Of a stretch of DNA of 64,000 nucleotides, positions 148-64,000 are shown piece after piece. Under the pieces are notes generated by a model. The model was not told the DNA's origin and searched no databases. It saw only the letters and a list, made by a program, of their open reading frames with translations. The stretch is from Streptantibioticus ferralitis (GTDB taxonomy: Bacteria; Actinomycetota; Actinomycetes; Streptomycetales; Streptomycetaceae): contig NZ_JARHTQ010000025.1 of NCBI RefSeq assembly GCF_029223525.1, positions 1 through 64,000 of the forward strand, read 5' to 3'. Within the stretch, counting starts at the first letter, position 1. Each line of letters begins with the position of its first letter. The position numbers and the translations under genes were made by a program.

Positions 148-230
148 CCTACGGGTCGTAAAGACGACAACCCCCTCCGGGGGTTGAAACAATTCCTCCG
201 GAATTGTTTATGAATTCCTCCGGAATTCAT
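148..230. repeat. Telomere-like array of abutting hairpins
   Basis: Three perfect inverted repeats follow each other with no spacer: 168-186 (8-bp stem), 187-209 (10-bp stem) and 210-230 (9-bp stem). Each encloses the same loop, TCC on the plus strand, which is GGA on the minus strand. A weaker 5-bp stem lies at 155-168. In linear Streptomyces replicons the single-stranded 3' overhang folds into hairpins with GNA-type trinucleotide loops closed by C:G; at a left end that overhang is the minus strand, where these loops read C-GGA-G. The sequence does not begin like the archetypal Streptomyces telomere as I remember it. The very last bases may be missing. Confidence 0.65.
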
Positions 231-577: not shown

Positions 578-841
578 ATGCAGGTTGAGGAATTCACCGC
601 ACGCGAAGTCATCCGCCAGTCCGTGCAGAAGAAAGCCACGGACATAGACCGGGAAGAGGCAGCCGCGGAGACCGATAAAACCCGAGACTGGGAACACCAG
701 GCAGAGCGCGGAATCAACGAGCCGGGACGTCTGGACACCCTGCGCTGTGCTGAGTGGAAGCACACCCAATACCGCTGCGTCGGTTACGTCATGACGCAGC
801 ATCACGAGGAAGACTCCCGCACTGATGACGGGGTGGTGTGA
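578..841 (+). CDS. Hypothetical protein, 87 aa
   Basis: A small, charged, probably soluble protein rich in Glu, Arg and Lys with a likely helical centre. ATG at 578 is chosen because the frame upstream (from 359) runs through the structured subtelomere and has odd composition. The stop overlaps the GTG of the next gene by 4 bases, indicating translational coupling. No family recognised. Confidence 0.5.
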   Translation: MQVEEFTAREVIRQSVQKKATDIDREEAAAETDKTRDWEHQAERGINEPGRLDTLRCAEWKHTQYRCVGYVMTQHHEEDSRTDDGVV

Positions 842-2168: not shown

Positions 2169-4838
2169 ATGAGTGAGATTCCGCTTTGGCGGCATCAGGC
2201 GGAGGCCTTGGACGCGATTATCCGGGGGCTCTCGGTGCCGCTGGACGGGGTGGTGCCTGCCCGGGGTCTGCGCGGGACGGTGGTGTCGTCCACGGGGTCG
2301 GGCAAGACGATCACGGCGGCCACGGCGGCGCTGCGGATGGTGCCCCGGGGGCTGGTGGGGGTGTTGGTGCCGACGCTGGATCTGCTGACACAGACCGCGG
2401 AGGCGTGGCGTGCGGTGGGGCACAAGGGCCCTGCGGTGGCGGTGTGTTCGTTGGGTGCTGACCCGCTGCTGGAGGCACTGGATCTGCGGTGCACGACCAA
2501 TCCGACGCAGTTGGCGTTGTGGGCGAGCAGCGGGCCGATGATCGTGTTCGCGACCTACGCCAGCTTGTCGCCGCAGGGCCTGGAGGACGACCAGGGCAGC
2601 GAGAGTGTGGCCGCGCCGGGCGTGCTGGAGCGGGCCATGCGCGGCAGCTACGGGCAGCGCATGGGCCCGTTCGACCTCCTGGTGGTCGATGAAGCCCACC
2701 GCTCTTCGGGGGACTTGGGCAAGGCGTGGGCGGCGGTGCACGACCAGGAGCGGATCCCGGCGGTGCGGCGGCTGTACATGACGGCGACACCACGCCTGTG
2801 GGCAGCCTCCCCCACCGCTGCCGCAGTAGCGGGCCAGGAGGGCGGGCAGAGCGGCTCGGGGGCCTTGGGTGGGCGTCTGGTGGCCTCCATGGATGACGTC
2901 GAACTCTACGGTCCCGTGCTGTACGAGCTTGGGCTGATGGAGAGTGTGGAGCGGGGCGTCCTAGCCTCGTTCGAGATCGACGTGCTGGAGATCCGGGATC
3001 CCGAGGCACCCGGCCCGGATGCCTCGGTGGAGGAGGTGCGCGGCCGGCGTCTGGCTTCCTTGCAAGCCGCGTTGCTCAAGCATGCTGGCACTATCGGTGC
3101 CCGCTCGTTGATGACGTTCCACAGCCGCACTCTCGATGCGATGGCGTTCGCCCGCGCACTGCCGGAGACGGCTGCCGAGCTGCACGAGACGGATCGGGCC
3201 ATCTACCCGAAGCGGGTGGGTGCGGAGTGGCTGTGCGGGGAGCACCCGGTGGCCCACCGGCGGGTGGTGCTGGACCGGTTCGCCGACGGCCTGGACGCCG
3301 AAGGGTGGGTGACCGACATGGGCATCCTGGCGAGTTGCCGGGTGCTGGGCGAGGGTGTCGACATCCGCGGCACACGAGGTGTCGGTGGCGTGGTGTTCGC
3401 CGATACCCGTAGTTCGCCGGTGGAGATCGTGCAGATCACCGGCCGGGGCCTGCGTCAGCATCCGGGCGAGGGGAAGGTGGCGCGGCTGATCGTGCCGATC
3501 TTCCTGCAGCCGGGCGAAGACCCGCAGGACATGATGGCGTCCGCGAGCTACCGCCCTCTTGTGGCCGTGTTGCAAGGACTTCGGGCTCATGACGAGCGGA
3601 TCATCGAGCGCATGGTGTTGCGGACCAGCACCGCCCGCGGGCAGGCCACTTCCGTGGTCGCCCTCGATCCCCAGCACGAAGAGGAGCAGGAAGCACAAGA
3701 AGAAGTCGACGGCGAGGGTGCGGGCGGCGAAGACGTCAGCGTGCCCGAGGGCGGGGGCGAGGGCGGCGAAGAGAGCGCCGTGCGCAGCGAGGCCGGTGGT
3801 GGCCAGGAGGAGGAGCCGGAGGCGGCCGGAGTGCCGTTGCTGCGGTTCTCCCTGCCGCGCAACCCCGACGTGATCGCCGATTTCCTGCGCACCCGGGTGC
3901 TTCGGCCGGACTCCGAGGTGTGGCTGGCGGGTCTCAACGCCCTGCGCAAGTGGGGTAAGGCCCACGGCGACGCGCAGGTGCCTTTGGACGCCGTTGTCCC
4001 GATCGGGGCGACCGAGAGTGACGGTGAAGACGGCAACGGCAACGGGACGTATGCGCTGGGGGCATGGGTCAGTGAGCAGCGGCGGGCTTTTCGTGCGGGG
4101 ACGCTCAAGGCGTGGCGCGTCGAGCTGTTGAATGAGCTGGGCATGGTCTGGTCGGTCGCGGACGCACGGTTCTACAAGAACCTCGCCGCGGCCCGGGCCT
4201 ACTTCACGGTGCACCACAGCCTCGCAGCACCCAAAGACGCGTCCATCGACGGGGTAGCGGTAGGCCAGTGGCTGGCCAACTGCCGCAAAACCGGGGGGCT
4301 TGGCACGGACGAAGAGCGCGCTGCTGACCGCCGCCGGGCGTTGGAGGCCATCGACCCCGACTGGAACCCACAGTGGCCGATCGACTGGCAGCGGCGGTAC
4401 GCCGCACTCGCCGCGGTGGTGGCCGACGGGGCGACGCTCGCGGAACTCCAGCCCGGCGTCACCATCGCCAGCCAGGACATCGGCGCGTGGCTGGAGGCGC
4501 AGCGTGAGGGCTGGGAGCAGTTGAGCGATGGGCAGCGCGAACGCCTGGCCGCACTCGGCGTCGAACCGCTACCCGCGCCGAAGGAGGACCCGGCGAAGGC
4601 CCGTAAGAGTGGCATGGGGGCCTTCGAACGAGGGGTTGCGGCCCTGCAGCAGTACAAAGCCCGCACGGGCTCTGTGACCGTTTCAAGGGGGCATGTTGAG
4701 ACCGTTGTCATCGGCGGCGAGGAGCACGCTGTGAAGCTGGGCGTCTTCCTGTCGAACAGCAGGTCGAGGCGTGCCAAGCTCACCTCCGACCGGCTCCGGG
4801 CGCTGGCCGAGTTGGGGCTGGAGTGGGCCGCGGTGTGA
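2169..4838 (+). CDS. Telomere-proximal superfamily II helicase with helicase-associated domains
   Basis: An 889-aa DEAD/DEAH-type ATP-dependent helicase. Walker A (STGSGKT) is near residue 44, the DEAH box (VVDEAH) near 173, a TAT motif III near 203, and motif VI (QITGRGLRQ) near 422. An acidic Gln/Glu/Gly-rich linker spans about 510-560. From about 575 to the end there are repeated units with W..L..L..y...hG...V and LG.W....R signatures, which match helicase-associated (HA) domains. ATG at 2169 follows GGAGGGG at 2157-2163. Helicases of this architecture sit next to Streptomyces chromosome and plasmid telomeres; TtrA, of SLP2 and related ends, has been linked to transfer. Location here, 2 kb from the end, fits. 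Confidence 0.85.
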   Translation: MSEIPLWRHQAEALDAIIRGLSVPLDGVVPARGLRGTVVSSTGSGKTITAATAALRMVPRGLVGVLVPTLDLLTQTAEAWRAVGHKGPAVAVCSLGADPLLEALDLRCTTNPTQLALWASSGPMIVFATYASLSPQGLEDDQGSESVAAPGVLERAMRGSYGQRMGPFDLLVVDEAHRSSGDLGKAWAAVHDQERIPAVRRLYMTATPRLWAASPTAAAVAGQEGGQSGSGALGGRLVASMDDVELYGPVLYELGLMESVERGVLASFEIDVLEIRDPEAPGPDASVEEVRGRRLASLQAALLKHAGTIGARSLMTFHSRTLDAMAFARALPETAAELHETDRAIYPKRVGAEWLCGEHPVAHRRVVLDRFADGLDAEGWVTDMGILASCRVLGEGVDIRGTRGVGGVVFADTRSSPVEIVQITGRGLRQHPGEGKVARLIVPIFLQPGEDPQDMMASASYRPLVAVLQGLRAHDERIIERMVLRTSTARGQATSVVALDPQHEEEQEAQEEVDGEGAGGEDVSVPEGGGEGGEESAVRSEAGGGQEEEPEAAGVPLLRFSLPRNPDVIADFLRTRVLRPDSEVWLAGLNALRKWGKAHGDAQVPLDAVVPIGATESDGEDGNGNGTYALGAWVSEQRRAFRAGTLKAWRVELLNELGMVWSVADARFYKNLAAARAYFTVHHSLAAPKDASIDGVAVGQWLANCRKTGGLGTDEERAADRRRALEAIDPDWNPQWPIDWQRRYAALAAVVADGATLAELQPGVTIASQDIGAWLEAQREGWEQLSDGQRERLAALGVEPLPAPKEDPAKARKSGMGAFERGVAALQQYKARTGSVTVSRGHVETVVIGGEEHAVKLGVFLSNSRSRRAKLTSDRLRALAELGLEWAAV

Positions 4839-63886: not shown

Positions 63887-64000
63887 TCAGGCGGCCAGCC
63901 GGTGGACGACCGGGGCCGTGGAGGCGAAGTAGGTGTCGGGGCTGGGCTCGTAGCCCCGGGCGCAGGGGTCGCAGCAGCCCTGGGTGCGCAGCGGGAGGCA
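63887..64000 (-). CDS. Partial hypothetical protein, C-terminal 37 aa
   Basis: The frame runs off the window edge. It reads TQGCCDPCARGYEPSPDTYF, then a hydrophobic end VVHRLAA and a stop at 63887-63889. The CCDPC cluster resembles the other Cys-rich proteins of this operon. Confidence 0.5.
   Translation of the reverse strand, partial: CLPLRTQGCCDPCARGYEPSPDTYFASTAPVVHRLAA

Follow-up and report, generated by a model that had tools for sequence, protein, structure and literature searches.

The left edge of contig C28 (110,335 bp), one of the 110 contigs in the draft genome of a Streptomyces relative, raises two questions: whether the row of small hairpins lying there is the end of a linear replicon and, if it is, which proteins fill that end after replication. 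The window analysed here is the stretch of DNA from base 1 to base 64,000 of this contig. The features of its left part are as follows.

1–147, no strand: sequencing artefact, a poly-C run with letters that we take to be P7/Nextera adapter, outside the replicon sequence
148–159, minus strand: truncated outer hairpin with a GTA loop, 12 of 17 nt present (whole at the right contig end, and also included in alignment A6, described below)
148–557, no strand: left terminal inverted repeat, partner at C28 109898–110307 on the minus strand, 91% identical
168–186, minus strand: telomere hairpin, 8 bp stem, GGA loop, exact
187–209, minus strand: telomere hairpin, 10 bp stem, GGA loop; the stem covaries (helix 2, both-sided changes in 4 of 10 pairs)
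210–230, minus strand: telomere hairpin, 9 bp stem, GGA loop; the stem covaries (helix 1, both-sided changes in 4 of 9 pairs)
578–841, plus strand: small subterminal ORF, 87 aa, without Pfam match
2169–4838, plus strand: DEAD/ResIII helicase with helicase-associated (HA) domains, transcribed inward (HA 5e-43, ResIII 7.5e-18)

The three hairpins at 168–186, 187–209 and 210–230 abut one another exactly as the initial annotation described, with perfect stems and with loops that read TCC on the plus strand and GGA on the minus strand, and the observation is confirmed. Six perfect triloop hairpins with stems of at least 8 bp are present between 148 and 64000; three of them are the telomere hairpins, which form the only abutting chain, and in 100 first-order Markov sequences there are a mean of 3.0 such hairpins and the longest chain is 1, so that a chain of three occurs in 0 of 100. 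Folded as DNA, positions 149–260 of the minus strand reach −26.6 kcal/mol (z −5.95). Replicon sequence begins at 148, where the match with the contig's right end sets in, and this position lies within a further GTA-loop hairpin. Some 2 kb inside, the helicase that had been pointed to is present and carries the helicase-associated domains; it has homologues in contig C72 of the same genome and in L011 and L012. No tRNAs were found in the window. Untrimmed adapter likewise stands at the end of contig C26, and letters that we take to be sequencing adapters lie next to a telomere tip in one public plasmid record (L135 1–26) and at the end of L207, from a draft genome.

The first question is answered by the other end of the contig. 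An inverted copy there had been set as a check beforehand, and it is present: the minus strand of C28 109898–110307 repeats 148–557 at 91% identity over 410 bp, and C28 is therefore a linear plasmid. The right-hand copy extends 28 nt beyond the left, to 110335, and its extra part contains the whole GTA-loop hairpin together with a terminal GGA-loop hairpin; as DNA, the right end folds at −38.1 kcal/mol (z −5.8). The contig edge thus marks the end of a replicon, as had been supposed, but it is not the exact tip, since tagmentation joined adapter to replicon within the outermost hairpin, leaving the left copy 28 nt shorter than the right. Because GCGCGCG precedes the matching TCC in both pSGZL and the S. 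rimosus plasmid pPZG101, about six nucleotides may still be absent from C28. A linear plasmid of about 110 kb has its left telomere, in truncated form, at positions 148–230. Contig C72 (L010; 13,629 bp) has the same end type at its start, followed by a related helicase and the same operon as that described below, and the strain therefore seems, by these sequence features, to hold a second such element; the DNA at 455–793 is related to the subterminal DNA of C72 (69% identity).

Comparison of the terminal 111 nt with PLSDB by blastn returns 40 records, of which 34 cover at least 80% of the query, and none of these 34 matches is more than 33 nt away from the end of its record. The motif CGACGCRCGNNNCTACGNNNCGYNAAG also stands at both ends of the G238 chromosome, a single contig of 8,078,361 bp. 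These positions, together with the inverted copy, speak for a GNA-loop telomere of a linear replicon, as initially suggested, and make it scarcely credible that the hairpins are an internal repeat, a terminator cluster or an assembly artefact, a reading to which the untrimmed adapter at the edge and the draft state of so divided an assembly would otherwise lend some colour.

A match to a described telomere decides the class. Plasmid pSGZL matches the terminal query at 90.1% over 111 nt (record position 7–116), and the S. rimosus R6-500 plasmid pPZG101 matches at 80.9%. In a 2021 paper, pSGZL is Sg2247-type telomere number 13, in a class that also includes S. griseus 2247 and S. rimosus ATCC 10970 (PMC8743542). 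From the match to pSGZL and the published placing of that plasmid, the C28 end is, as far as sequence can tell, a new member of the Sg2247 class. Its right end contains five hairpins with GGA or GTA loops throughout, the class trait being GGA/GAA/GTA stem-loops in the terminal 150 nt. The proposal of a possible new telomere type accordingly falls. A genuinely new class could appeal to the strong conservation being confined to about 110 nt and to a hairpin number that varies between replicons, and is nonetheless very improbable given the match to a published class member. Both pPZG101 (L135) and pSGZL (L136) are recorded as circular, yet both start with an Sg2247-class telomere.

The putative folding of the 3′ overhang into hairpins with GTA and GGA triloops is supported by covariation. 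In alignment A6, composed of 18 replicon ends in which the three stems contribute 26 pairs, 98.1% of the 463 cells are paired, and both-sided changes are found in 11 pairs (36 cells); none of 500 shuffles is as high, and slid partners are 25–56% paired. Ends that differ in hairpin number, spacing or type (C72, L011, L013–L016, CP108282, G372 and G359) are omitted from A6, as are ends of other types and the second ends of replicons already in it.

The second question, that of the proteins, has been recognised for some time. End-patching proteins of the Sg2247 class were called elusive in 2021 (PMC8743542), and the proteins for such ends had likewise been stated to be unknown in 2014 (PMC3937824). 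In a literature that excludes most subscription journals and bioRxiv, and in those parts of it that are accessible, no working end-patching proteins are identified for Sg2247 telomeres and no polymerase domain is reported in Tap. Three small linear plasmids (32.5, 36.1 and 28.1 kb) have 102 annotated proteins between them; when these are compared by tblastn with C28, with C72 (a 13.6 kb contig) and among the plasmids themselves, one adjacent gene pair proves common to all five replicons, and only one. It consists of a 450–523-aa HTH protein followed by a 191–195-aa protein (200 aa on C28), annotated as an HTH protein and as a transcriptional regulator or hypothetical protein, respectively. The most diverged pair is that of the 28.1 kb plasmid, whose telomere is diverged as well. 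The C28 copies of both genes lie beyond the 64,000 bases of the window.

C28 101707–103263, plus strand: Tap-like gene, 518 aa
C28 103263–103865, plus strand: Tpg-like gene, 200 aa

The large protein resembles Tap at its start. Its N-terminal region of about 190 residues matches the NCBIfam Tap model (NF047542) at 4e-19 and 2.5e-22 (residues 6–187 for the latter), with scores of 68.7 and 79.4 bits that miss the 600-bit cut-off and take in only profile positions 4–146 of 695; the L013 protein has no NCBIfam Tap match at all. The C-terminal part contains three conserved blocks, LDxN(A/G)AYLSA (46 of 46 sequences), K(A/S)MYSKF(I/V)ST (43 of 46) and GTDELH (44 of 46), with a conserved RPDWM-containing helix between the second and the third. 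The sequence of phi29 polymerase has DVNSLYP, NSLYGKF and DTDSIHL, and with these as landmarks we take the three blocks to come in the same order as motifs A, B and C of family B polymerases. A moderately confident AlphaFold2 model (pLDDT 70.4, pTM 0.48), computed with 46 rows for a 515-aa relative of 82% identity, has motif A in a strand, motif B in a helix and motif C across a strand-turn-strand. Foldseek comparison of the model with the PDB places phi29 polymerase first (E 5.8e-4) and the phi29 polymerase–terminal protein complex next (1.7e-3, probability 1.00); numerous further polymerases of family B come below these, along with HTH proteins. A single hit has E ≤ 0.001, and TM-scores are only about 0.2 (about 0.22). 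Among viral models, two DNA polymerases are at the top (3.2e-4 and 4.6e-4), the second being that of the Streptomyces tectivirus WheeHeim, whose family has protein-primed polymerases according to PMC6950372. By predicted structure, then, the C-terminal domain best matches protein-primed DNA polymerases.

A link between this domain and phi29 polymerase drawn from sequence comparison only is rejected as not significant: against a phi29-like profile the HMM-HMM score is 20.6, less than the 22.4 reached by the highest of 60 shuffles, and merging the Tap and Tap-like profiles brings no gain. Pfam gives no polymerase for the first member, and none is found among the matches listed (best 25 of 41 families) for the 46 members. 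Searches for the Tap-like protein in phages give no match in 50,697 records and none that is confirmed in IMG/VR. On two linear plasmids of 15–17 kb, the polymerase-like domain is fused behind an N-terminal part of about 750 aa (L014 1880–5098 and L015 10852–14040); both also carry ssb, traA and traB, and have ends with GAA-loop hairpins of another type.

Archetypal Tap appears to share the domain distantly. When 24 Tap sequences are aligned (a 25th, shortened by a stop, was dropped), their C-terminal part aligns with the Tap-like domain over 205 columns (E 9.8e-5, probability 58; 0 of 100 column shuffles as high), and the alignment takes in the DxN.AF of Tap. KGGIGKL and SDCVVY are the counterparts by eye of motifs B and C, and strict patterns for motifs A, B and C are present in 18, 19 and 15 of the 24 Taps; the Tap profile finds no match to the phi29-like profile. 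According to a 2015 study, Tap and Tac have no polymerase motif, yet make protein-linked DNA, and the activity of Tap was credited to a new polymerase class without any known motif (PMC4513846). We incline, by a little, to the reading that the Tap-like family and archetypal Tap are miniature protein-primed family B DNA polymerases without an exonuclease. If true, this reading has three consequences. First, it explains why Tap and Tpg alone start DNA on a protein. Second, it supplies the enzyme that is missing for Sg2247 telomeres and for some others that are not archetypal. Third, the end-patching of linear chromosomes in bacteria joins the phi29/tectivirus way of protein-primed replication, as opposed to the separate invention proposed in 2015 (PMC4513846).

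The similarity of the small protein to Tpg is weak. Three Tpg-like proteins have no NCBIfam match up to E 1, and so none reaches the cut-off of the Tpg model (NF047541), and a structure model (pLDDT 89.5) finds no PDB match at E ≤ 0.001. When compared with 13 Tpg sequences (those found by a motif filter beside the 25 Taps), the Tpg-like protein aligns in the HTH region only (probability 15.5, E 0.0017; 0 of 100 shuffles as high), and its later strands and helices resemble those of Tpg in order, by eye. Residue T114 of Tpg, described as DNA-linked in PMC3572947, has no clear counterpart in the Tpg-like protein.

The own genome, a draft, has no Tap that reaches the cut-off, and its two best Tap hits are the N-termini of Tap-like genes. 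The Tpg model is passed there by a 120-aa Tap–Tpg chimera (122.7 bits, positions 100–183) and also finds a 27-bit fragment. The chimera (L025 1393–1755; G000 C33:330609–330968) has a Tap-like start, for which Tap gives 53% identity over 34 aa (E 2e-4) and the Tap-like family 42% over 43 aa (E 7e-6), joined to the second half of Tpg, with 65% identity over 81 aa. It looks like what an in-frame deletion would leave of a two-gene telomere-protein operon; no other protein spanning its residues 1–120 is found among the matches listed for 150 genomes of the family. A gene in S. albus J1074, XNR_5804, known here by its published description alone, may well be a member of the Tap-like family. In PMC3937824 it is a Tap-domain gene that stands at the right chromosome end and is followed downstream by a DNA-binding-protein pseudogene; it was judged non-functional, and a yet unidentified Tap/Tpg pair was assumed for J1074. 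That chromosome is counted as Sg2247-ended (PMC8743542).

If the pair serves this telomere, the two should be found together. Among 394 genomes of the family searched for CGACGCRCGNNNCTACGNNNCGYNAAG with at most one mismatch, the motif is present in nine and its stem is intact in eight, and all eight belong to the 17 genomes that have a close Tpg-like protein, defined as at least 61% identity over at least 185 residues by a line drawn after the list was seen (just outside it are G165, at 60% with one stop, and G092, at 61% but partial). The ninth motif genome, G391, has a broken stem and is without the pair. By the hypergeometric test P is 1.8e-12; leaving out the own genome gives 4.2e-11, and counting G391 as a hit gives 1.6e-11. 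In the other nine of the 17 the motif does not show; among the three of these whose ends were read, G372 and G359 have related ends that it missed, and G162 has a left end of a different kind. The reversed pattern is matched in 11 of the 394 genomes, so single motif hits prove little and the weight is carried by the stem and the association. G238 has the pair about 17 kb from its right end and is without a full Tap; indeed, a full Tap is found in three of 16 close-pair genomes (G342, G352 and G386) as opposed to 95 of 150 in the family. Co-inheritance can also produce such a co-occurrence.

More distant members are widespread, with Tpg-like proteins in 111 of 394 genomes at E ≤ 1e-10 and in 162 plasmid records at E ≤ 0.01. 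Copies lie 3–11 kb from both chromosome ends in G385, G314, G166, G249 and G162, genomes chosen since their copies looked terminal, other copies being more internal, such as a third one in G385 at 312 kb from an end. Pairs of 45–61% identity are present in genomes with other end sequences. G314, G166 and G237 (L200, L201 and L204, positions 1–80) share another chromosome-end hairpin sequence, TGACGCGCCGTCA, and have more distant pair members; the family may therefore serve several telomere types.

The plasmid records show the same association with clear exceptions. Among the best 60 of the 162 hits, a Tpg-like protein of at least 60% identity is carried by 24 of the 34 telomere records; the same best 60 contain 32 records at this level in all, namely these 24, CP086103, whose telomere match spans only 37%, and seven unmatched records. 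Ten of the 34 are without the pair on this count (CP109406, CP108662, CP109414, pPZG101, CP109269, CP109284, CP107900, CP108453, CP109263 and CP108371), one of which, CP107900, has the same strain name as a pair carrier, CP107901. A scan of five telomere records for the Tap-like protein is positive for pSGZL and finds nothing in pPZG101 and CP109414, a broken N-terminal piece in CP109406 and N-terminal hits only in CP108371; the Tap-like match of CP108282 is in four pieces. CP108371 has an archetypal tap-tpg operon (Tap 1019.5 bits, Tpg 280.8 bits; L213 432–3191, corresponding to CP108371 13431–16190), in which one of its N-terminal Tap-like hits lies. Since it combines an Sg2247-like right end with a left end that, in the record, does not belong to this type, it may be a hybrid plasmid, or its Tap/Tpg may serve an Sg2247-like end; PMC8743542 reports hybrids in which an Sg2247 end is paired with an archetypal one. 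If the pair serves the class, the records without it would have to be supplied in trans, be hybrid replicons or make use of Tap/Tpg.

These exceptions bear directly on the possibility that the telomere is of the Sg2247 class and the operon a co-travelling regulator or maintenance module, the ends being patched by archetypal Tap/Tpg in trans or by another protein. The annotations of the two genes agree with it, as do the ten records without a close copy, the archetypal operon of CP108371 in place of a Tap-like C-terminal domain, and a relative of the CP108371 Tap on CP109405, which has the same strain name as telomere record CP109406. We consider this unlikely, although by no means negligible, for several reasons. 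First, neither the own genome nor 13 of the 16 close-pair genomes has a Tap over the cut-off. Second, this is the sole gene pair that the five replicons share. Third, its gene order and N-terminus are those of tap-tpg, and its predicted fold is polymerase-like. Finally, the pair accompanies the intact motif in eight of eight genomes, and copies lie near both chromosome ends in the five genomes named above.

We therefore favor, with a probability of roughly two in three, an Sg2247-class left telomere whose overhang forms hairpins and whose end is filled by the plasmid-coded Tap-like/Tpg-like pair with its polymerase-like domain. Bidirectional replication would leave a 3′ overhang, which would fold into the row of GTA and GGA triloop hairpins, and the pair would then fill the end. 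The Tap-like protein would bind the hairpins through its HTH/N-terminal domain, and its C-terminal domain, resembling a reduced protein-primed family B polymerase, would add the first nucleotides to the Tpg-like terminal protein of about 195 aa, which would presumably stay on the 5′ end. Catalysis, covalent capping and this division of labour are what we infer for the pair, which would take the place of Tap/Tpg on the majority of replicons in the class but not on every one. The class itself was already known; what this analysis adds is a candidate pair of proteins with a polymerase-like core, and real exceptions to it remain. The operon travelling with the Sg2247 telomere may be the end-replication machinery, and naming it makes the question of the Sg2247 end-replication proteins directly testable in laboratory Streptomyces.

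Comparison with known systems places the locus as follows. With the Sg2247 class it shares the terminal sequence, the GGA/GTA hairpins and an occurrence at plasmid and chromosome ends, while stem sequences and hairpin number vary (four to six seen, the tip being absent from some records). The helicase is likened to TtrA by position alone. XNR_5804 is alike by description, as a Tap-domain gene at the end of an Sg2247-ended chromosome, and unlike in that its authors deemed it non-functional (PMC3937824 and PMC8743542). The Tap-like C-terminal domain is like the protein-primed family B polymerases in its predicted fold and in the order of motif A (DxN..Y), motif B (Y.KF), a helix and motif C (a TD hairpin), and unlike them in the Gly at the position of the first motif-C Asp, in the lack of a significant sequence match, and in its length of only about 330 aa, which therefore leaves no room for an exonuclease domain. 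From archetypal Tap/Tpg the pair differs in matching neither the Tap cut-off nor the Tpg model and in the size of its large protein (518 aa on C28 versus about 700–760), and it is alike in being a two-gene operon of a large HTH protein followed by a protein of about 190 aa, in the Tap N-terminal domain and in the distant similarity of the C-terminal part of Tap to the Tap-like domain. Finally, by its published description, Tac/Tpc of SCP1 offers a parallel, being a pair that belongs to a non-archetypal telomere of its own (PMC4513846, PMC8743542).
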